Positions 2,480 to 24,301 of a stretch of DNA of 64,000 nucleotides are shown one piece after another. A program made the translations under genes and the position numbers. Numbering within the stretch: the first letter of the stretch is position 1; the number at the start of each line of letters is the position of its first letter. Origin of the DNA: Olsenella sp. An285 (GTDB lineage: Bacteria > Actinomycetota > Coriobacteriia > Coriobacteriales > Atopobiaceae); contig NZ_NFIZ01000011.1 of the NCBI RefSeq assembly GCF_002159625.1, positions 1-64,000 of the forward strand, given 5' to 3'. Below the pieces are notes generated by a model, which did not search any database, was not told the DNA's origin, and saw nothing but the letters and a program-made list of their open reading frames with translations.

Positions 2480-3547
2480 ATGTCGCTCAGGGCAGAGAAG
2501 CTCATGGCGCGGCAGCGGCCGAGCTTCGACGAGATCACGCGCCTGGTGGAGCGCGCCTCCACCATCGCCGTGTGCGCGCACACGTCCCCCGACGGGGACG
2601 CGCTGGGGTCCGAGCTCGCGCTGGTCGAGCTCATCGAGAGGACGTGGCCGGAGAAGCGGGTCTGCGCCCTGCTGGCGGACGACGACGTGGTGCCGAGGAT
2701 CTACGAGTTCCTCCCCGGGGCCGAGCGCCTCGTGCGCCCCTCTGACTACCAGGAGGACCCCGACCTCTTCTTCTGCGTCGACCTCTCCGCCCCGGACCGG
2801 CTCGCCGGTGCCCGTGCCGTGCTCGAGCGCTCCTCGAGCGTGGCCGTGATCGACCACCACCCCTCCGCCGAGCGGTTCTGGGACGCCGGCGTGGTGCGCA
2901 CGGAGGCCGCGGCCGCGGGCGTCATCGTGTCCGAGTACGCCCTCCACGTGGCGGGCGGGCTCACGCCCACGATGGCCCAGTGCCTGCTCTGCGCCCTCGT
3001 GACGGACACCGGACGCTTCCAGTACCAGAACGCCAACGGCGAGGCCTTCGAGGTGGCGAGCCTGCTCGTGGACTCCGGTGCCTCGCCCTCCGAGGTGGCG
3101 CTCCACGTCTACCAGAGCGACCGCGTGGCGTACCTGCACCTCTGCGCCACGGTGATGGGCCGCATCACCACGTTCGAGCAGGGCAAGATTGCCTACAGCT
3201 ACGCCACGGGCGCGGACTTCGAGGCCACGGGCGTTCCCGTGGCGGAGTGCGACGGCCTCGTTGACATCGTGCGCCGCGTGGACGGCTGCGAGGTGGCGCT
3301 CTTCCTCAAGGAGGTGCCGGGCGGCAAGGTGCGCGGAAACCTCCGTGCCAAGTCCGACCGCGACATCTCCGCCATCGCGCGCGAGATGGGCGGCGGCGGT
3401 CACCCCGCAGCGGCCGGCTTCACCGTTGAGGGCGACATCGACCAGGCCCTCTCCGCCGTCCTGCCCAAGCTCCGCGACCTCTACGCACCTGACAAAGGGA
3501 CAGTCCCTTTGTCATGTTATGTCGGCGACAAGCCGGCGGAGGGCTGA
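2480..3547 (+). CDS. nrnA: DHH/DHHA1 phosphoesterase, NrnA type (oligoribonuclease / pAp phosphatase)
   Basis: This family degrades short RNA oligonucleotides (nanoRNA) and dephosphorylates 3'-phosphoadenosine 5'-phosphate in the cytoplasm. The 355-residue product has the N-terminal metal motif DGDALGS (about residue 38), the DHH triad at 125-127 (IDHHPS), and a C-terminal DHHA1 domain with the GGGGHPAAAG loop (about 303-312). The order infB-rbfA-nrnA-truB-ribF is typical. The last 15 or so residues are odd: they are encoded by a perfect palindrome (3490-3514, giving DKGTVPLSC) and the sequence after it, and they look like a non-homologous tail. This suggests a repeat inserted at the original 3' end. 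The catalytic parts are intact. Confidence 0.93.
   Translation: MSLRAEKLMARQRPSFDEITRLVERASTIAVCAHTSPDGDALGSELALVELIERTWPEKRVCALLADDDVVPRIYEFLPGAERLVRPSDYQEDPDLFFCVDLSAPDRLAGARAVLERSSSVAVIDHHPSAERFWDAGVVRTEAAAAGVIVSEYALHVAGGLTPTMAQCLLCALVTDTGRFQYQNANGEAFEVASLLVDSGASPSEVALHVYQSDRVAYLHLCATVMGRITTFEQGKIAYSYATGADFEATGVPVAECDGLVDIVRRVDGCEVALFLKEVPGGKVRGNLRAKSDRDISAIAREMGGGGHPAAAGFTVEGDIDQALSAVLPKLRDLYAPDKGTVPLSCYVGDKPAEG
3490..3514. repeat. REP-like palindrome at the end of nrnA
   Basis: The arms TGACAAAGGGAC and GTCCCTTTGTCA are perfect inverted repeats around a single central A. The element lies inside the nrnA reading frame and supplies codons of its C-terminal tail. A second palindrome with the same central block, GGGAC-A-GTCCC, occurs at 32622-32652. 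Palindromes of this kind are often mobilised by REP-associated tyrosine transposases; no such gene is in this window, so mobility is inference. Confidence 0.75.
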
Positions 3548-3549
3548 CG

Positions 3550-5721
3550 TTGGCCCGCCGACCGAGCGCCTTCTCCGCGCTCATCGCCGTAGACAAGCCC
3601 GCTGGCATGACGAGCCACGACGTCGTCTCCCGCGTCCGTCGCGCGGTGGGGGAGCGGCGCGTGGGTCACGCCGGCACGCTCGACCCCGCTGCCACTGGCG
3701 TGCTCGTGGTGGGCATAGGCCAGGCGACCAAGCTCCTGGGCCTGCTCACCCTCGACCGCAAGGGCTACCGCGCCACGTTCCAGCTGGGTGCTGAGACCAC
3801 CACCGACGACGCCGAGGGCGAGGTCACCCGCACCGCCGAGGTGCCCGACGAGCTCCTCGACGGTCGCGCCCACCCCATCATCGCCGGCCTCGTGGGCTGG
3901 CACGACCAGGTGCCGCCCCAGTACTCCGCCGTCTCCGTTAACGGTCGCCGCGCGTATGACGCGGCCCGCGCGGGCGAGGAGGTGGAGCTCGCCGCCCGGA
4001 GGATCCGCATCTACGACGCCAGCTGCTGCGGCGTGGACCCGGAGGCGCGCACCTGGGAGCTCGACCTCGACGTCTCCAAGGGCACCTACGTGCGCAGCAT
4101 CGCGCGCGACCTGGGACGCGACCTCGGCTGCCTCGCGCATGTGAGCGAGCTCACCCGCACCTTTGCCGGGCCCGTCACGCTCGCGGACTGCGTGAGCCTC
4201 GCTGAACTCCAGGCCGGCGGCGCAGACCTCGTGCGCGAGCGCTGCCTCGACCCGGCAGCCGTGCTCGGGCTCGCCGCGCGCGAGCTTACGCTCGGCGAGA
4301 TCTCCGACGTCACCAACGGACGGCGCATCCCGCTTGGCACCGTCCGGCAGGGCGTGGTCTCCCGCGAGCCCGCGCAGGGCGAGCGCGTGGCCCTCACGCT
4401 GGGTGGGGGCCTTGCGGGCATCTGGCGCCGCGACGGTCGCCACCTCGTGTGCGAGACCAACTTCCCGCAGGCCATCGAGGGCGTGCGCGACGTGCCGCTT
4501 CCCGCGGAGCTCTCTCCGGAGCGCCCGCTCGCGCCGCGGGCGGCGGTGGCGCTCCTCCGTGACGCCCCCGGCTGCTGCGGCGGGCCGCGCTCCCTTGGGG
4601 GCGGTGACGTCAGCCTCCTCGGGGGCGAGGTCACGGGCTGGGTGTCCCTCCAGGAGCACCTTGCGCTCGAGCCCCCCGCGCCCGGGAACGACCCGCGTCT
4701 CATGCGGCGCTTCTCGGCCGGCAGCGACCGCTTCGTCTGCGCCATCGGCGCCTTCGACGGCCTGCACCGCGGACACCGCGCCCTCATCGCACGCGCCCGC
4801 GCGGAGGCGGACGCCCGGGGCGCCCATCTCATGGTCGTGACCTTCACGCCGGACCCCGCCCGCGTCCTGGGCGGGGAGGGGGCGCCGCGCGACCTCCTTC
4901 CCGCCGGCGAGCGCCCGGCCCTCATCCAGGCCAGCTGGGACGTGGACGCCGTGCTCGTGGTCGACTTCACGCCGCAGGTGGCGGCGCTTCCCTACGAGCG
5001 CTTCGTCCGCGAGGTCCTGGGCGCCTACTGCACCGTGGTCTCCCTCGTGGTGGGGGAGGACTTCTGCCTGGGGGCCGGCGGCGCCGGCACGGTCGCCGCC
5101 CTGCGCGCCCTGGGCGAGAAGGACGGCTTTGACGTCACCGGCGTGCCCCTCATGCGAGACGGCGGCGCACCGATAACCGCCACGCGCATCCGGGGGCTCC
5201 TTGCCAAGGGCAGGGTCGAGGAGGCCGCGAGCCTGCTCGGGCGCTGCCACCGCGTCTTCGGCGTGGTAGAGCACGGTCGCGGCGAGGGCACGGGCTTTGG
5301 CTTCCCCACGGCAAACGTGCGCGTGCTCGACGGGCTCGCCCTGCCCGCCGAGGGCGTCTACGCCGGGTTCGTCGACGTGGACATGGCGCCCGGCGAGTCC
5401 GAGCGACGCGCGTACCCCGCCGCGATCAACGTGGGCAAGCCCAGGTCCTTCTCGCCCGGCGAGGAGGGGGAGCAGTTCCTCGAGGCCACGCTCCTGGGCT
5501 TTGAGGGCGACCTCTACGGCCGGGGCGTCCGCGTGACCTTCGTGCGGTGGCTGCGCGCGCCGCGGCGCTTCGACTCCGTCGAGGAGCTCGAGCGCACGGT
5601 GCTCTCCAACGTCGACTGGGTGCGCCGGACCCTTGGCGAGAAGGGCGTCGTGCTGCAGCGCGTGCCGGACTTCTCGCTCTGCGAGCTCGTGGCGCGCTCG
5701 AGGGGGGAGGTGGCCTCGTGA
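3550..5721 (+). CDS. TruB-RibF fusion: tRNA pseudouridine-55 synthase joined to riboflavin kinase/FAD synthetase
   Basis: One open frame of 723 codons carries two enzymes that are usually separate neighbours. Residues 1 to about 300 are TruB, which makes pseudouridine 55 in tRNA: it has the catalytic Asp45 in GHAGTLDP and the motif KGTYVRSIARDLG. After a linker rich in Gly, Pro and Ala (about 310-385), RibF begins near Met385, with the nucleotidyltransferase motif GAFDGLHRGH at about 400-409. The riboflavin kinase domain, with GFPTAN at about 584-589, follows; RibF makes FMN and FAD. I prefer the TTG start at 3550 because GGAGGG lies 7 bases upstream; an ATG at 3514 would overlap nrnA within the palindrome. 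An independent RibF start at 4702 has no convincing ribosome site. No stop or frameshift separates the halves. Confidence 0.9.
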   Translation: MARRPSAFSALIAVDKPAGMTSHDVVSRVRRAVGERRVGHAGTLDPAATGVLVVGIGQATKLLGLLTLDRKGYRATFQLGAETTTDDAEGEVTRTAEVPDELLDGRAHPIIAGLVGWHDQVPPQYSAVSVNGRRAYDAARAGEEVELAARRIRIYDASCCGVDPEARTWELDLDVSKGTYVRSIARDLGRDLGCLAHVSELTRTFAGPVTLADCVSLAELQAGGADLVRERCLDPAAVLGLAARELTLGEISDVTNGRRIPLGTVRQGVVSREPAQGERVALTLGGGLAGIWRRDGRHLVCETNFPQAIEGVRDVPLPAELSPERPLAPRAAVALLRDAPGCCGGPRSLGGGDVSLLGGEVTGWVSLQEHLALEPPAPGNDPRLMRRFSAGSDRFVCAIGAFDGLHRGHRALIARARAEADARGAHLMVVTFTPDPARVLGGEGAPRDLLPAGERPALIQASWDVDAVLVVDFTPQVAALPYERFVREVLGAYCTVVSLVVGEDFCLGAGGAGTVAALRALGEKDGFDVTGVPLMRDGGAPITATRIRGLLAKGRVEEAASLLGRCHRVFGVVEHGRGEGTGFGFPTANVRVLDGLALPAEGVYAGFVDVDMAPGESERRAYPAAINVGKPRSFSPGEEGEQFLEATLLGFEGDLYGRGVRVTFVRWLRAPRRFDSVEELERTVLSNVDWVRRTLGEKGVVLQRVPDFSLCELVARSRGEVAS

Positions 5722-9475: not shown

Positions 9476-9550
9476 TCCCCGGTGGCGCAGTGGTAGCGCA
9501 GCTGACTGTTAATCAGCGTGTCGTAGGTTCGAATCCTACCCGGGGAGCCA
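9476..9550 (+). tRNA. tRNA-Asn (anticodon GTT)
   Basis: A complete cloverleaf is visible: acceptor TCCCCGG pairs with CCGGGGA, the D arm contains AGTGGTA, the anticodon stem GCTGA/TCAGC encloses the loop CTGTTAA, and the T arm contains GGTTCGAATCC. The anticodon at positions 34-36 is GTT, reading AAC/AAT. The discriminator base is G and the 3' CCA is encoded (9548-9550). Confidence 0.97.
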
Positions 9551-9672: not shown

Positions 9673-10497
9673 TTGAGTCACATATCCGCGGCAACAGAGA
9701 AGGTCTCGCACGTTCCCGACAACGTGTCGAAGGACCGCTTCATCCTCCAGCAGCTCGTCTCCAAGGACTTCAAGCTCCGGTACCGGCGCTCCGTGCTGGG
9801 CGTCGTCTGGAGCGTTCTCAACCCGCTGCTCATGATGATCATCATGAGCTTCGTCTTCTCGTACTTCCTCAGGAGCGCGAGCGTCCAGAACTACCCGCTC
9901 TACCTCATCGTGGGCAACATCACGTTCAGCCTCATGAACGAGGCGACCTCCGGCGGCCTGGGCTCGATCATCGGCGCCGCGCCCCTGCTCAAGAAGGTCA
10001 AGGTCGACCGCTGGGTGTTCCCCGTCCAGAAGGTCCTCTCGGCCATGATGAACTTTGGCTTCTCGCTCATCGCGGTCGTCATCGTCATGCTGTTCTTCCG
10101 CGTCATGCCCACGTGGCACCTCGTCTGGATGATTCCGGCCCTGCTCCTGCTGATGGTCTTCTGCATAGGCGTCAGCCTGCTCATCGGCGCAGCGGCAGTC
10201 TTCTTCCGCGACATGGTCCACCTCTGGAGCGTCTTCATCACCGCCTGGACCTACCTCACGCCCATCTTCTGGGACCTCTCCCTGCTCACCAACGCGGGAG
10301 CGCCGCAGATCGTCATCTGGGTGGTCAAGGCCAACCCCATGTACAACTACCTCGACATGATGCGCTGCGCCATCGTGTACCAGGCCAACCCCGGCACCAC
10401 CGTGATCCTCCTCTCGGTGCTGTGGGCCGTCATCGCCCTTGCGCTGGGCGTCTGGGTCTTCCGCAAGACCGAGCACAAGTTCATCCTCTACGTCTAG
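9673..10497 (+). CDS. ABC-2 type polysaccharide/teichoic acid exporter, membrane subunit (Wzm/TagG-like)
   Basis: This is the membrane half of a two-gene exporter for a lipid-linked cell-surface glycopolymer. The 274-residue product has a cytoplasmic N-terminus with the family motif FKLRYRRSVLGVVWSVLNPL and about six membrane helices, for example MMIIMSFVFSYFL near the start and VILLSVLWAVIALALGVWVF near the end. The start is uncertain: TTG at 9673 follows GGGAGGT at a short distance, and no ATG is near. The polymer cannot be named from sequence. Its ATPase follows after 13 bases. No glycosyltransferase gene lies in the window, so the substrate pathway is elsewhere. Confidence 0.88.
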   Translation: MSHISAATEKVSHVPDNVSKDRFILQQLVSKDFKLRYRRSVLGVVWSVLNPLLMMIIMSFVFSYFLRSASVQNYPLYLIVGNITFSLMNEATSGGLGSIIGAAPLLKKVKVDRWVFPVQKVLSAMMNFGFSLIAVVIVMLFFRVMPTWHLVWMIPALLLLMVFCIGVSLLIGAAAVFFRDMVHLWSVFITAWTYLTPIFWDLSLLTNAGAPQIVIWVVKANPMYNYLDMMRCAIVYQANPGTTVILLSVLWAVIALALGVWVFRKTEHKFILYV

Positions 10498-10510: not shown

Positions 10511-12265
10511 ATGGAAGACACCACCGCCTCCGAGTACGCCATCGAGGTCGACGACGTCTCGATGATCTTCAACATGGCGAGCGAGCAGCTCAACAACCTC
10601 AAGGAGTACTTCATCAAGATCATGAGGCACGAGCTGTTCTTCAAGGAGTTTCGCGCCCTCAACCATGTGAGCTTCAAGATCAAGCGCGGCGAGGTCGTGG
10701 GCCTGGTGGGCACCAACGGCTCCGGCAAGTCCACGATGCTCAAGTGCATCGCAGGCGTCCTCGAGCCCTCGGAGGGCGCCATCACCGTGCGCGGAAACAT
10801 CGCCCCGCTCATCGAGCTCGGCGCGGGCTTCGACCAGGAGCTCACGGCGCGCGAGAACATCTATCTCAACGGCGCCCTTCTCGGCTACTCCCGCGAGTTC
10901 ATCGACGATCACCTCCAGGACATCATCGACTTCGCCGAGCTCGAGGACTTCATGGACATGCCCCTCAAGAACTACTCCTCGGGCATGGTCGCGCGCATCG
11001 CCTTCGCCATCGCCACGGTCACCGAGCCGGACATCCTCATCGTCGACGAGACCCTCTCCGTGGGCGACGTCTTCTTCCAGCAGAAGTGCGAGGCCCGCAT
11101 CAGGAGCTTCATCGAGTCCGGCGACGTCACCGTGCTCTTTGTCTCTCACTCCATGGCCCAGGTCGCCCGCATCTGCGACCGCGCCATCTGGATCGAGAAG
11201 GGCGAGATGCGCATGGACGGCCCCTCCAAGGAGGTCGTGGCGGAGTACGCCGCGCAGTTCGACCCCGCGCCTTCCGCGTCGGCGGGGGAGAAGGCCGTCA
11301 TCGACCGGCTCATCGCCAACACCTCCTACTCGCTCCTCTCGGCTGACGACGAGACCGGCTTCGTCCCCGAGAAGGACGAGGAGGGCCGCGAGAACCGCTT
11401 CTACGTGGCCTACACGGGAGGTCCCGTGGCCGTGCCGGGCGCCCGCTACCAGGTCCAGAAGGGCAGCACCTACTTCTACGTGCCCCTGGACCCCTCCATG
11501 TACTCGGTCGTCTACCTCAAGAACGAGGAGGGCAAGGTCGTCCGGGAGGCCGTCGACGAGGGCACCTACACGATCGAGGTCGACCTCACCGAGGCCGCGC
11601 GCTCGCGCTACCGCCTCGTGGACACCTCCTACAGCTTCACCGTCAAGCGCTGCGGGCACTACGACGACGTCGCCTCCGCCGCCTGGTACTCGGAGGCGGT
11701 CGAGCGCGCCTACAACCTCTACTACCTCTCGGACAACCCCGAGAACCTCTTCCGTCCCTACGACCCGCTTCTCAGGTGCGAGGCCCTGGGGCTCCTCCGA
11801 CGCATGACCGCGGGGCTTCTGGACGAGGGCGCAGACGCCGAGGGCGGGGATGCCGCGGCCCCCACGGGCTACGCCGACGTCAAGGGTGACGAGCCCTACT
11901 TCGACGACTTCGCCTGGGCGCAGCGCCACGGCATCGTGGGCCCGGGCGGAGAGGGCGCGCTCTTCCGCCCGGAGGACCCCACCACGCGCGAGGAGTTCGC
12001 GGTCATGCTCTCGCGCCTCGCGCGCGCCAGGGGCACCTACGTCGCCCCCGCGCTCGACGCCCTGTCCAAGGTCACGGACGTGGGCACCATCTCCGAGTCC
12101 GCGCTGACCGACGTCGCCTGGGCCGTTGCCAACGGGGTCATGGGCAACGGCGGCACGGTCAAGGGCTCCGCCGCGCTCACCCGCGCGGAGGCGGCTGCGA
12201 TGGCGGTGAACTACCAGCCCGAGTCACCGGACGGCTGCAACAGGGTCACCAGGCCGCGCGGCTGA
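10511..12265 (+). CDS. ABC exporter ATPase (Wzt/TagH-like) with three C-terminal SLH repeats
   Basis: This is the ATPase partner of the preceding permease. Residues 1-250 are a standard nucleotide-binding domain: Walker A GTNGSGKST at 67-75, signature YSSGMVAR at 155-162, Walker B DILIVDE at 174-180, and the switch His in FVSHS. Instead of a usual Wzt carbohydrate-binding domain, residues 260-380 look like a beta-rich domain. Residues 384-570 then form three S-layer homology repeats, each starting near a DV motif (YDDVASAAWYSEAVERA, YADVKGDEPYFDDFAWA, VTDVGTISESALTDVAWA) and ending in a FRP.DP..R.E-like motif or remnant of it. SLH repeats normally bind cell-wall polymers outside the cell, so their place on a cytoplasmic ATPase is unusual. 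The start ATG follows GGGAG. Confidence 0.9.
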   Translation: MEDTTASEYAIEVDDVSMIFNMASEQLNNLKEYFIKIMRHELFFKEFRALNHVSFKIKRGEVVGLVGTNGSGKSTMLKCIAGVLEPSEGAITVRGNIAPLIELGAGFDQELTARENIYLNGALLGYSREFIDDHLQDIIDFAELEDFMDMPLKNYSSGMVARIAFAIATVTEPDILIVDETLSVGDVFFQQKCEARIRSFIESGDVTVLFVSHSMAQVARICDRAIWIEKGEMRMDGPSKEVVAEYAAQFDPAPSASAGEKAVIDRLIANTSYSLLSADDETGFVPEKDEEGRENRFYVAYTGGPVAVPGARYQVQKGSTYFYVPLDPSMYSVVYLKNEEGKVVREAVDEGTYTIEVDLTEAARSRYRLVDTSYSFTVKRCGHYDDVASAAWYSEAVERAYNLYYLSDNPENLFRPYDPLLRCEALGLLRRMTAGLLDEGADAEGGDAAAPTGYADVKGDEPYFDDFAWAQRHGIVGPGGEGALFRPEDPTTREEFAVMLSRLARARGTYVAPALDALSKVTDVGTISESALTDVAWAVANGVMGNGGTVKGSAALTRAEAAAMAVNYQPESPDGCNRVTRPRG

Positions 12266-12438: not shown

Positions 12439-13008
12439 ATGGACCAGCCTGTGCTCAAGGCCCAGATCATGGACGGCCAGGGCATGAGCCGCGCGCTCAC
12501 CCGCATCGCCCATGAGATCATCGAGAGGAACGAGGGCGCCTCCAAGATCGCGCTCGTGGGCATCGTGCGCCGCGGCGCCGCCATCGCCCCGCTCCTCGCG
12601 AATGAGATCGAGAAGATCGAGGGCGTCCGACCGCCCGTGGGCACGCTCGACGTGAGCTTCTACCGCGACGACGTCAGCCGCAAGATCGCGCCCGTCGAGT
12701 TTGGGACGGACATCCCCTTTGGCGTGGACGACCGCGACATCGTGCTCGTGGACGACGTCCTCTACACCGGTCGCACCATCCGCGCCGCGCTCGACGCCCT
12801 CATCGACCTCGGGCGCCCCAAGACGGTGCAGCTCGCCGTCATGATCGACCGCGGGCACCGCGAGCTCCCCATCCGAGCGGACTACGTGGGCAAGAACGTC
12901 CCCTCCTCGCACGAGGAGGACGTCCGCGTGACCATCGCCCCCTACGACGAGGTCAACGCGGTCGAGATCTGGACGAGGCCCACCGAGAAGAACGGAGGCG
13001 ACCGCTAA
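12439..13008 (+). CDS. pyrR: PyrR: pyr operon RNA-binding attenuator / uracil phosphoribosyltransferase
   Basis: PyrR binds pyr leader RNA when UMP is plentiful and has secondary uracil phosphoribosyltransferase activity. The 189-residue product is a type I phosphoribosyltransferase fold with the PRPP loop VLVDDVLYTGRTIRAALDAL near residues 104-123 and the family motif GIVRRGA near 42-48. It is slightly longer than the common 178-180 residues. The ATG has GAAGGGAG upstream. It is the first gene of the pyrimidine operon and lies directly after an attenuator of the type it would control; pyrB begins two bases after its stop. Confidence 0.95.
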   Translation: MDQPVLKAQIMDGQGMSRALTRIAHEIIERNEGASKIALVGIVRRGAAIAPLLANEIEKIEGVRPPVGTLDVSFYRDDVSRKIAPVEFGTDIPFGVDDRDIVLVDDVLYTGRTIRAALDALIDLGRPKTVQLAVMIDRGHRELPIRADYVGKNVPSSHEEDVRVTIAPYDEVNAVEIWTRPTEKNGGDR

Positions 13009-21351: not shown

Positions 21352-23683
21352 GGTCGAGCGCCCGCCCCGGCCCGCGCTGCCCGAGTCGCTCTGGGCGCTC
21401 GTAGCGGCGCTTGCCTGCGAGCGCGCGGTCCTGGGCTCAGGCCCCTCGGCGGACGACCTTGCGCGGGGCCTCGTCGCAGCAGCCGCGCTCGGCGCCGTGG
21501 CGTGCCTCGCCCTCCTCCGCTCGCGGCTCCGGGCGCTCGTTCCCGTGGTCGCCGTCGTCGCGGCGGCAGTCGTGGCGTCGGGAGCCTCTGCCGGGATGGA
21601 GCTCTCGCGACAGCGCTCGCTCGAGGCGGCGCTGGGGCAGAGCCCGGTGTCCTCGTGGTCGTTCGAGCTCTCGGGGGACATGAGCCAGGGCGCCTCGGGC
21701 TGGCGCGGGCGCGCCACGGCGACGACGGAGGGCCGTTCGCGGGGGACGGTATGGCTCGTCTCCGACGAACCGCTCGAATCCGGGTCTGTCGTTCGCTGCG
21801 TCGGACGCTACGAGCCCAACCCCGAGGGCGATTGGGGAGACTCCTCGCGTGCTCAGGGCGTCGCCGGAACCGTGCGCGTGGTCCGCGTCCTCTCGGCGCG
21901 CCCGCCCGAGGGCGCGCTCGGGGTGGTCCAGGGCGTCAGGTCCGCGGTCATGGAGACGTTCGACGCCTCGTCCTCGGACGCCCGCGCGCTTCTCGCCGGA
22001 AGCGTCTGCGGGTCCGTGGCGGCCATCTCCGAGCGCGGGCTCGACGATCGCTTCGCCGCCTGCGGCGTGTCCCACCTCGTTGCGGTCTCCGGCGGGCACC
22101 TCGTGCTCGTCTCAGCCTTCATGGGTGCCGCGCTGGCGGGCTCGCGGCTGGGGCACCTTGCCCGCGCGGTCGTTCTTCTCGGCGTCACGGCGCTCTTCGT
22201 CGCGTTCTGCGGGGCTCCCGTCTCCGCCGTGCGCTCGTGGGCCATGTCGCTCGTGGCGTCCGCCTCCGGGCCGCTGGGCCGCAGGGCGCACCCGCTCTCA
22301 TCTGCCTGCGCCGTGGCCCTTGCGATGGCGCTTGCCGAGCCCGGCGTCACGGGGCAGCTCGGCTTCATGCTCTCCGTCATGTGCGTGTGCGGCATCTGCG
22401 GCCTCGGGGCGTACGCGCGGTATGCGGTGAGGGTCCTTGGTCCCGACGTTCGCATGCCCCGGCGGCTTCCCGGGCCCGCTCGTCGCGCGCTCTCCTCGCT
22501 TGTGAGCGACGCGCGCGAGGCCCTTGCGCTCACGCTCGTCTCCCAGGCGGTGACGCTTCCCCTCACCTGCTCGTCCTTCTCGACGCTCTCCCTGGTGGCG
22601 CCGCTTGCCAACGTCCTTCTCGGCACGCTCTTCTCGGCATTTCTCGCGTCGGGGCTCGTGGCGGCCTGTCTCTTCTGGGCGCCCGCCCTGCAGGTCGTCC
22701 CGCTTGCCGCGTGTGACGTCCTGGGCGGCGCCTTCGTGGCTGTTGTGGAGGGGCTCTCGCGCGTGCCGCTCGCCTCCGTCCCCGTCTCGGTCGAGGAGGG
22801 TCCCGCGATGCTGGCCCTGGCTGCCGTACTCGCGCTGCTTCTGGTGTGGTGGCCGCGGGTGAGCAGGCGCGCCGTCCTCGCCTCGGGGGCGCTCGCCGTC
22901 GCGTGCGGCGTCGCGTGGGTGGCGCGCTGGTCTCTCCTGGCACCAGCGCGGGTCTGCGTGCTCGACGTGGGACAGGGCGATGCCATCCTCGTGACGGACG
23001 GCGCCTCCTCCGTTCTCGTTGACACGGGGCCCGGGGATGCCGTCGTGAGCGCTCTTGCCAGGAACAACGTGTTCCTCCTCGACGCGGTCGTGCTCACGCA
23101 CCTCCACGCGGACCACGCCGGGGGCCTTGAGGACGTCCGGGGGGCGGTGGCGGTGGGGCGCGTCATCGTGCCGGAGGGGACGGACGCATCCTCCCTCGGG
23201 GACGGGGTGGAGGTCGAGGAGGTGCGCTACGGAGACGTGCTGCGCGTGGGGCGCTTCTCGCTCAGGGCGGTGTCGCCCGTTGAGCCCGCGGGCGGGGAGG
23301 GCAACGAGGGATCGCTCGAGCTCGCGCTCGACTTCGACGACGGCGCGCGCACGCTCACGGGCCTTCTGGCGGCCGACGCCGAGCGCGACGAGACGGGTGC
23401 GGCGGTGGAGCGCGGCGACGTGGGCGACGTCGACTTCCTCAAGGTGGGCCACCACGGCTCGGCGGCCTCGCTGGACGAGGGGATAGCGGAGGCGCTGGCG
23501 CCCGAGGTCTCCGTGGCGAGCGCGGGGAAGGGCAACGGCTACGGGCACCCCACGCCCGAGTGCGTGGAGGTGCTCGAGGGGACGGGGTCGCTCTTTCTCT
23601 GCACGATCGACGCAGGTGACGTGACGGTCGAACCCGGGACGGAGGGTCCCGTGGTGAGCCGCCAGAAGGGAGGGGAGCCATGA
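21341..23683 (+). CDS. comEC: ComEC/Rec2 DNA-uptake channel
   Basis: ComEC forms the channel that moves single-stranded DNA across the membrane in natural transformation. The 780-residue product has N-terminal membrane helices, an OB-like external region, the central Competence domain (GVSHLVAVSGGHLVLVSAFMG and following helices), more membrane helices to about 530, and a C-terminal metallo-beta-lactamase-like domain (VLDVGQGDAI, LTHLHADHAGG, VGHHGS). The GTG start lies inside comEA. Both genes look intact. Other competence genes (comG, dprA) are not in the window, so transformability cannot be judged here. Confidence 0.93.
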   Translation: MSAEVERPPRPALPESLWALVAALACERAVLGSGPSADDLARGLVAAAALGAVACLALLRSRLRALVPVVAVVAAAVVASGASAGMELSRQRSLEAALGQSPVSSWSFELSGDMSQGASGWRGRATATTEGRSRGTVWLVSDEPLESGSVVRCVGRYEPNPEGDWGDSSRAQGVAGTVRVVRVLSARPPEGALGVVQGVRSAVMETFDASSSDARALLAGSVCGSVAAISERGLDDRFAACGVSHLVAVSGGHLVLVSAFMGAALAGSRLGHLARAVVLLGVTALFVAFCGAPVSAVRSWAMSLVASASGPLGRRAHPLSSACAVALAMALAEPGVTGQLGFMLSVMCVCGICGLGAYARYAVRVLGPDVRMPRRLPGPARRALSSLVSDAREALALTLVSQAVTLPLTCSSFSTLSLVAPLANVLLGTLFSAFLASGLVAACLFWAPALQVVPLAACDVLGGAFVAVVEGLSRVPLASVPVSVEEGPAMLALAAVLALLLVWWPRVSRRAVLASGALAVACGVAWVARWSLLAPARVCVLDVGQGDAILVTDGASSVLVDTGPGDAVVSALARNNVFLLDAVVLTHLHADHAGGLEDVRGAVAVGRVIVPEGTDASSLGDGVEVEEVRYGDVLRVGRFSLRAVSPVEPAGGEGNEGSLELALDFDDGARTLTGLLAADAERDETGAAVERGDVGDVDFLKVGHHGSAASLDEGIAEALAPEVSVASAGKGNGYGHPTPECVEVLEGTGSLFLCTIDAGDVTVEPGTEGPVVSRQKGGEP

Positions 23684-23693
23684 GCGGCGCATC

Positions 23694-23722
23694 TGCTACA
23701 CTGGGGGCCATGATTATGGCCC
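23694..23722 (+). promoter_or_regulatory. Extended -10 promoter and operator of the toxin-antitoxin operon
   Basis: TGCTACACT (23694-23702) is an extended -10 promoter that lies just past the comEC stop; there is no good -35. Immediately downstream, GGGCCAT (23705-23711) and ATGGCCC (23716-23722) form a perfect inverted repeat over the expected transcription start. It is a plausible autoregulatory operator for the antitoxin-toxin complex. Confidence 0.65.
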
Positions 23723-23736
23723 AAAGGGGGTGTGAT

Positions 23737-24006
23737 ATGCCAAGGTGCGTGCCCATCAAGGGAATCAAGAACACGACCGAGTTCGCGCGCATCGTCGAGG
23801 AGTCGCCCGAGCCCGTCATCGTGACGCGCAACGGGCAGGAGGTCTTCGCCGCCATGTCCATCGAGCTGCTCGACTCGCTTCGCATGGAGCGCGCCCGCGC
23901 CGAGCTCTACCGGCTCATCGAGGAGGCGGAGCAGGCCTCGCGTGAGGGCAGGGTCGTCGACGCCCGCGAGTCCAACAGAAGGACGCGTGAGCGCTATGGC
24001 CTATGA
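23737..24006 (+). CDS. Antitoxin of Phd/YefM type
   Basis: The 89-residue product resembles Phd/YefM antitoxins: an N-terminal DNA-binding part (IKGIKNTTEFARIVEESPEPVIVTRNGQEVFAAMS) followed by a charged helical C-terminus (LRMERARAELYRLIEEAEQASREGR) that would wrap around the toxin. The ATG at 23737 follows AAAGGGGGT; an earlier in-frame start would lie within the promoter and comEC, so it is rejected. The stop overlaps the toxin start by 11 bases. An inverted-repeat operator lies just upstream. The pair sits between two housekeeping genes, comEC and holA. Assignment rests on family similarity and gene pairing. Confidence 0.82.
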   Translation: MPRCVPIKGIKNTTEFARIVEESPEPVIVTRNGQEVFAAMSIELLDSLRMERARAELYRLIEEAEQASREGRVVDARESNRRTRERYGL

Positions 24007-24301
24007 CGTCACCTACACCGAGCCTGCCGAGCTCGACAAGGAGCGGATAGTCGCCTATCTTGTGCTCGAGAAGCAGAGTCGCCAGGCAGCGGAGCGCTTT
24101 CTCGCCGACGTCGACCACGTGGTCGAGAACCTCGCGAACATGCCCAAGACGTACTCTGCGGTTACGGACGGGCGCGCCGCCGAGGCTGGCTACCGCAAGG
24201 CGGGCTTCTCGTCCTACGTGGCGCTCTACCGGGTCCTCGACAAGACGGTCGAGATAGACCGCATCTTTCACGCCAAGCAGGACTACGCGCGGCTGCTCTA
24301 G
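23996..24301 (+). CDS. Toxin of RelE/ParE family
   Basis: The 101-residue product has the RelE/ParE fold signature: an N-terminal helical part (ELDKERIVAYLVLEKQSRQAAERFLADVD), a central ENLANMPKTY segment, and a C-terminal strand run (GFSSYVALYRVLDKTVEIDRIFHAKQDY). RelE enzymes cut ribosome-bound mRNA while ParE enzymes poison gyrase. The pattern of GYRKAGF.SYVALYRV favours ParE/YoeB-like, but the target cannot be set from sequence. The start ATG lies within the antitoxin gene, typical of coupled toxin-antitoxin pairs. Confidence 0.8.
   Translation: MAYDVTYTEPAELDKERIVAYLVLEKQSRQAAERFLADVDHVVENLANMPKTYSAVTDGRAAEAGYRKAGFSSYVALYRVLDKTVEIDRIFHAKQDYARLL

Follow-up and report, generated by a model that had tools for sequence, protein, structure and literature searches.

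In the Wzm-Wzt O-antigen exporter of Aquifex aeolicus, the ATPase carries an extra C-terminal cytoplasmic domain, described as having a jelly-roll fold and reading a cap that is methylated; by recognizing the modified nonreducing end, this domain certifies a chain for export (PMC9445017). The TagGH teichoic acid exporter of Bacillus subtilis likewise bears a module of a polymer-binding type on its ATPase (SH3b-like in TagH), which lies outside the membrane because TagH crosses it (PMC11466899). The trimers of S-layer homology (SLH) repeats in surface proteins are reported to bind terminal pyruvylated N-acetylmannosamine and not the internal residue (PMC6081394). CsaB is described as working on the lipid-linked precursor, and the same account states the polymerization and export of pyruvylated secondary wall polymers, including their order, as open (PMC6030368). 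Here we describe a gene of Olsenella sp. An285 that joins an exporter ATPase to an SLH trimer. It occupies positions 10511-12265 (+) of the 64,000-nucleotide stretch that was analyzed (contig NZ_NFIZ01000011.1, positions 1 to 64,000; referred to here as the window), and searches of the available literature found no description of such a fusion. A wall-anchor module on the inner motor protein of a pump suggests that the pump checks the finished polymer end before release. The best explanation, which we hold with slightly more confidence than doubt, is that the tail acts as a cytoplasmic lectin bringing pyruvyl-capped polymer to the pump, by analogy with the cap-binding domain of Wzt.

The gene encodes a 584-amino-acid protein (ATG to TGA) and begins 13 bases past the stop codon of a Wzm/TagG-type permease gene (9703-10497, +; start codon provisional). 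The permease scores 66.5 bits against ABC2_membrane; its best NCBIfam model is a galactan export permease, matched under the model's cut-off. In Pfam, the whole 584-residue protein matches ABC_tran (84.6 bits, residues 50-182) and SLH (62.6 bits over three stretches), and the Wzt C-terminal family gives no match at E values up to 1. Profile and fold matches place the ATPase domain at residues 10-250 (10538-11260, +), with a Walker A motif, GTNGSGKST, read by eye at residues 67-75. Its nearest solved relatives are WzmWzt (7k2t; Z 29.3, 42% identity across 240 residues) and TagH/TarH (38-40% identity). Scores against the TagH equivalog (219.9; cut-off, 538) and the Wzt equivalog (199.9; cut-off, 400) both stay under the curated cut-offs, and judged by sequence the protein, with its adjoining permease, is an ATP-binding cassette (ABC) exporter ATPase of the Wzt/TagH type.

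Behind the ATPase, a linker (residues 251-259; 11261-11287, +), with a predicted local distance difference test score (pLDDT) below 50, leads to an immunoglobulin (Ig)-like beta domain at about residues 262-380 (11294-11650, +; best non-SLH fold match, Z 5.1), which is also present in stand-alone SLH surface proteins. Three SLH repeats follow at residues 384-424 (11660-11782, +; 23.9 bits), 454-497 (11870-12001, +; 29.6 bits), and 522-562 (12074-12196, +; 23.3 bits), each singly passing the Pfam cut-off of 20.8 bits. Modeled alone (pLDDT, 88.6; predicted template modeling score [pTM], 0.82), the tail retrieves SLH trimers as the first 14 Foldseek rows and the first 13 VIA-align rows, including 3pyw (Foldseek E 1.3e-8; VIA-align Z 19.1, root mean square deviation of 3.0 over 176 residues). 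The Wzt carbohydrate-binding jelly roll is absent from the VIA-align fold rows, which cannot exclude such a fold. On the three repeats and the predicted fold, the tail is an SLH trimer. The first-pass annotation, made from the letters alone, had read the gene as a Wzt/TagH-type ABC ATPase fused to three SLH repeats; the single open reading frame (ORF), the profiles, the fold, and six further genomes bear it out, and its repeat ranges agree with the Pfam residues. The profile search and structure prediction that it proposed as checks gave, respectively, three passing SLH repeats with no Wzt C-terminal family and an SLH fold.

No membrane helix was found past the ATPase (maximal 19-residue Kyte-Doolittle mean, 0.82, versus 2.78 for the permease as a control; hydropathy alone), and neither a secretion signal nor a signal-like start was found inside the protein from the ATPase to the repeats; the tail should therefore be cytoplasmic. 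Because the full-length model reaches a pTM of only 0.54, the position of the tail relative to the ATPase was not taken from it. The protein resembles Wzm-Wzt in its ATPase family, its permease, and its extra C-terminal cytoplasmic domain but has an Ig-like domain and an SLH trimer in place of the jelly roll. It resembles TagGH in bearing a polymer-binding type of module, although it lacks, by hydropathy, the membrane helix that places the TagH module outside. Its trimer fold (Z 16.6-19.1) with one full groove is that of the SLH surface proteins Sap and SpaA, from which it differs in being unsecreted, in being joined to an ATPase, and in having two degenerate grooves.

The in-frame fusion recurs in six more genomes (L021 to L025 and L071), with L021 to L025 showing 84, 71, 71, 70, and 70% identity to the window's protein, and the order permease, ATPase, tail, pyrR is common to all seven. 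In the window, pyrR (named by eye from sequence) lies at 12439-13008 (+) and is the next gene after the ATPase whether the latter is tailed or tail-less. Among 16 tail-less Atopobiaceae loci, which include some genomes counted through two collections, pyrR lies 172-237 bases past the ATPase stop codon in 10 and 6.2 kb away in 1; in the other 5, none occurs within the available stretch. As relatives thus have the same site without a tail, ATPase then pyrR, the ATPase gene gained about 1 kb at its 3' end, in place. The seven in-frame genomes, the shared synteny, and the lack of an internal signal or helix confirm that the fusion is genuine and no assembly artifact; frameshift, misassembly, and the separate secreted gene that the first-pass annotation had named as the outcome that would undo its reading are all rejected. 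A candidate decayed tail remnant behind the tail-less ATPase of L026 was also dropped, as the initial long match was not upheld and the tail has no match there.

The class was surveyed in 396 genomes, 261 of which hold an orthologue at E 1e-60 or better; tails were read from the loci, and the type names were assigned in this analysis. SLH tails occur on orthologues in at least 15 genomes, which answers the survey of Coriobacteriia that the first-pass annotation had suggested. Four types were distinguished: type A (Ig-like domain plus three SLH repeats; the window and six others), type B (SLH without the Ig-like domain; L039, L042, L043), type C (L044, L106), and type E (L157, L161, L162). Pfam SLH matches were confirmed for the window, L071, L039, L043, L044, L106, and L161. 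A number of orthologues (L047, L115, L119, L132, and similar) carry instead an N-terminal extension of about 110-150 residues with a weak, below-cut-off likeness to PKD or Y_Y_Y.

In a rapidly built tree with 110 ATPase domains, type A forms one group (95*) within tail-less Atopobiaceae, and five changes are required to explain the SLH tails, of which starred branches force three; these changes may be losses. A single origin of all SLH tails is rejected on the ATPase tree (approximately unbiased test, P = 0.0033), and SLH tails were therefore, on the sequence tree, gained separately at least twice on this gene. Types A, B, and C as one clade (P = 0.133) and types A and B (P = 0.087) are not rejected. 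The tails themselves suggest more gains than two: scores against a convenience set of stand-alone SLH proteins versus other tail types are 228-258 versus at most 75 bits for type A, 147-148 versus at most 48 bits for type C, and 107-119 versus at most 72 bits for type E. Type B tails score alike against both.

A second anchor module, CWB2, forms the tail of 44 of 84 orthologues in family f2 (the family of G219, 138 genomes; matches at E 1e-80), counted as those aligning over nearly the whole length of a CWB2-tailed ATPase query. All six such tails tested in Pfam exceed the cut-off (25.4-73.8 bits; the lowest, 25.4, stands against a cut-off of 24.9), and the CWB2 rows form one group (98*) on the same tree. 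The f2 tails resemble CWB2 proteins such as Cwp6 (a weak match, E 0.038) but differ from them in being cytoplasmic, in sitting on an exporter ATPase, and in not tracking CWB2 surface proteins. In f2 (L111 and other loci, among them L152 to L160 and L170 to L199), most genomes with such a tail encode few CWB2 surface proteins or none. Directly after one CWB2-tailed ATPase, a 783-residue ORF (L210:7033-9384) with N-terminal ferredoxin-like cysteine motifs, seen by eye, overlaps a PF04230 match.

Blackler and colleagues describe the groove beside repeat n as working given Gly29 in n, Trp13 in n+1, and Arg43 in n+2 (PMC6081394). With columns assigned by alignment to Sap, none of the 7 type A tails has a full groove 1 or groove 2, and all 7 have a full groove 3. 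Of the 6 stand-alone relatives, all have grooves 1 and 3 complete (Tyr standing in for Trp13 in groove 1), and 5 have groove 2 complete. Gly29 of repeat 1 is replaced by Asp or Glu in all seven type A tails, two have lost the Arg43 of that repeat, and two lack part of the first helix of repeat 2; none of these changes affects groove 3. The type A tail thus keeps Gly29, Trp13, and Arg43 in one groove only, formed in the window's protein by W392 (Trp13 of repeat 1; 11684-11686, +), R493 (Arg43 of repeat 2; 11987-11989, +), and G545 (Gly29 of repeat 3; 12143-12145, +; Sap alignment with a one-residue gap). By eye, groove 2 is kept in two of three type B tails, and Trp13 is missing from type C tails, where His, Gly, or the like takes its position, as it is from nearby SLH proteins. 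Four of the six stand-alone relatives show a signal-like N terminus; L065 is truncated by its contig, and the frame of L061 opens within the domain.

A comparison of the window with L021 gives an NG86 dN/dS of 0.40 in the tail, against 0.155 in the ATPase. In a neutral simulation of a single lineage, the frame stayed free of stop codons in 75 of 1,000 runs at 76% identity and in 9 of 1,000 at 55%. The tail is loosely constrained but not free.

The tail also keeps particular genomic company. SLH domains occur in at least 46 of the 396 genomes, at least 33 of which have five or more matches (referred to here as SLH-rich); the window's genome has 48. The tree has 93 rows whose genome is known; an SLH tail is carried by 14 of the 31 SLH-rich rows and by 0 of the 62 SLH-poor rows (Fisher P = 1.8e-8, ignoring relatedness). 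Because PF04230, found in 152 of 396 genomes, was too broad a marker of pyruvyltransferases and was dropped, we used the CsaB equivalog TIGR03609 (cut-off, 213.1 bits), calling matches of 45 bits or more CsaB-like, a threshold chosen after the scores were known. Of the 33 SLH-rich genomes, 29 have such a match, as do 12 of the 14 genomes with an SLH tail and 6 of the 71 others examined; CsaB-like presence thus follows SLH anchoring in general rather than the tail. The TIGR03609 scores in the window's genome are 61.9 and 57.5 bits, under the cut-off, and its PF04230 match passes at 77.4 bits.

Some pyruvyltransferase genes lie near the exporter. In both type C genomes, one is divergent from the permease-ATPase-SLH genes and is followed by glycosyltransferases; in G185, a GH25-SLH gene in the same stretch encodes, among those compared, the SLH protein nearest to the type C tail (39-40%). 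Among 56 genomes whose orthologues may or may not bear a tail, and with coordinates entered manually, 11 have a TIGR03609 match no more than 20 kb from the exporter (1.6 expected; P = 4e-7), and 8 have one no more than 10 kb away (0.8 expected). On another contig of the window's genome, L200:5565-10340 encodes a predicted 1,592-residue GT2-pyruvyltransferase-GT1-GT1 protein (start codon chosen by judgment), flanked by a GH25-SLH gene and an SLH-CotH gene. Two 732-residue proteins (L203:7170-9368 and L204:6049-8247) have a CsaB-like pyruvyltransferase as their C-terminal half and an N-terminal part without a Pfam match; by eye, GT2-like genes adjoin them.

Since Wzt reads a cap, SLH trimers bind a terminal residue, and CsaB works on a lipid-linked precursor, a cytoplasmic SLH trimer is what would be expected of a cap check. 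In the mechanism we propose, the gene product would be the ATPase of an ABC exporter moving a lipid-linked wall glycopolymer outward, and its tail would derive from a copy of part of an exported SLH surface protein, now retained in the cytoplasm. If the polymer is pyruvylated in the cytoplasm of this organism, groove 3 would hold the pyruvylated nonreducing end of the finished chain, and the trimer, as a lectin, would bring capped chains to the pump and gate their export, much as the Wzt C-terminal domain handles capped O antigen. With a single working groove in place of three, the trimer may have a weak, releasable grip suited to an exporter rather than a permanent anchor. The earlier reading, in which the repeats might recognize the wall polymer at the cytoplasmic face before export, is partly supported, through the fusion, the fold, and the confinement of SLH tails to SLH-rich genomes, most of them with CsaB-like pyruvyltransferases; nothing in the analysis points to the chain-length control that it also raised.

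A broader statement, to which we give somewhat less than even credence, is that surface-anchor modules (SLH and, separately, CWB2) have been repeatedly recruited as cytoplasmic recognition domains of Coriobacteriia wall-polymer ABC exporters. With SLH, the polymer would be finished and pyruvyl capped inside and exported whole, and the same fold would read the same end on both sides, monovalent inside and multivalent outside. CWB2 was considered as a second case of one module inside and outside and was rejected as such, since CWB2 tails do not track CWB2 surface proteins; that an exporter reads what surface proteins bind is thus no general rule, and it may hold for SLH.

Several observations weigh against a cap-reading tail. 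The tail evolves fast, with dN/dS of 0.40-0.92 versus 0.12-0.28 for the ATPase over 21 pairs. A relatedness-aware test of the association with SLH-rich genomes has two to five independent pairs and is not significant (median sign-test P = 0.5), and an SLH tail is missing from 17 of the 31 SLH-rich rows, so export in those genomes does without one. CWB2 matches number at most two in 38 of the 41 CWB2-tail genomes of the class sample (4, 6, and 10 in the other three), and nine f2-family genomes with an orthologue and at least 14 CWB2 matches align to the query over the ATPase only. No pyruvyltransferase in the genomes examined reaches the CsaB equivalog cut-off, and two SLH-tail genomes lack a strong CsaB-like match (G310, 21.8 bits; G342, none). 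Of the 11 TIGR03609 matches neighboring an exporter, 4 are weak, at 18-30 bits; no match falls inside the 20-kb limit in any of the nine genomes of types A and B checked for TIGR03609, and the window's exporter sits outside any polymer locus.

The strongest competing account makes the tail a scaffold or regulatory domain that dimerizes ATPases or docks polymer-making enzymes without binding a pyruvylated sugar. The rapid divergence of type A tails with loss of two grooves, the missing Trp13 of type C tails (by eye), and the CWB2 tails found without CWB2 surface proteins would all suit it; we nevertheless consider it unlikely, given that all 7 fused and all 6 stand-alone proteins share the same three residues in groove 3, even as the other grooves decayed, and that SLH tails are confined to SLH-rich genomes. 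More doubtful still is a tail that binds the polymer mid-chain, or a lipid-linked precursor, as a holding or feedback device instead of checking caps. The pyruvate could lie elsewhere than at the chain end, judging from alvei as described in PMC6030368, but the SpaA SLH trimer is reported not to have bound an internal repeat in solution (PMC6081394), with a ligand that may not be that of Coriobacteriia.

Slightly less probable again is that the tail is a functionless, tolerated by-product of recombination with abundant surface-protein genes. Donors are many in SLH-rich genomes, as the 48 matches of the window's genome illustrate, and the constraint on the tail is weak; against this stand an intact frame in seven diverged genomes, a conserved groove, and at least two gains on the same gene. 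That the C-terminal part is made or cleaved separately and secreted as a surface protein, as its nearest relatives (stand-alone SLH proteins, four of six with a visible signal-like N terminus) might suggest, is very improbable, since no hydrophobic stretch or signal lies between ATPase and repeats and the tail directly follows the ATPase in all seven genomes.

If the tail does bind the capped end, capping precedes export, and export is by an ABC transporter. Cap binding would make W392, R493, and G545 three testable residues, and the exporter would be a clear-cut example of a single lectin fold that recognizes the same glycan end inside and outside the membrane.

Elsewhere in the window, a tRNA-Asn gene (9476-9550, +) serves as a landmark upstream of the exporter genes. 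A single ORF at 3514-5721 is a truB-ribF fusion, with TruB first and then RibF (FAD synthetase and riboflavin kinase), and a Phd/YefM antitoxin and ParE toxin pair lies at 23680-24301.
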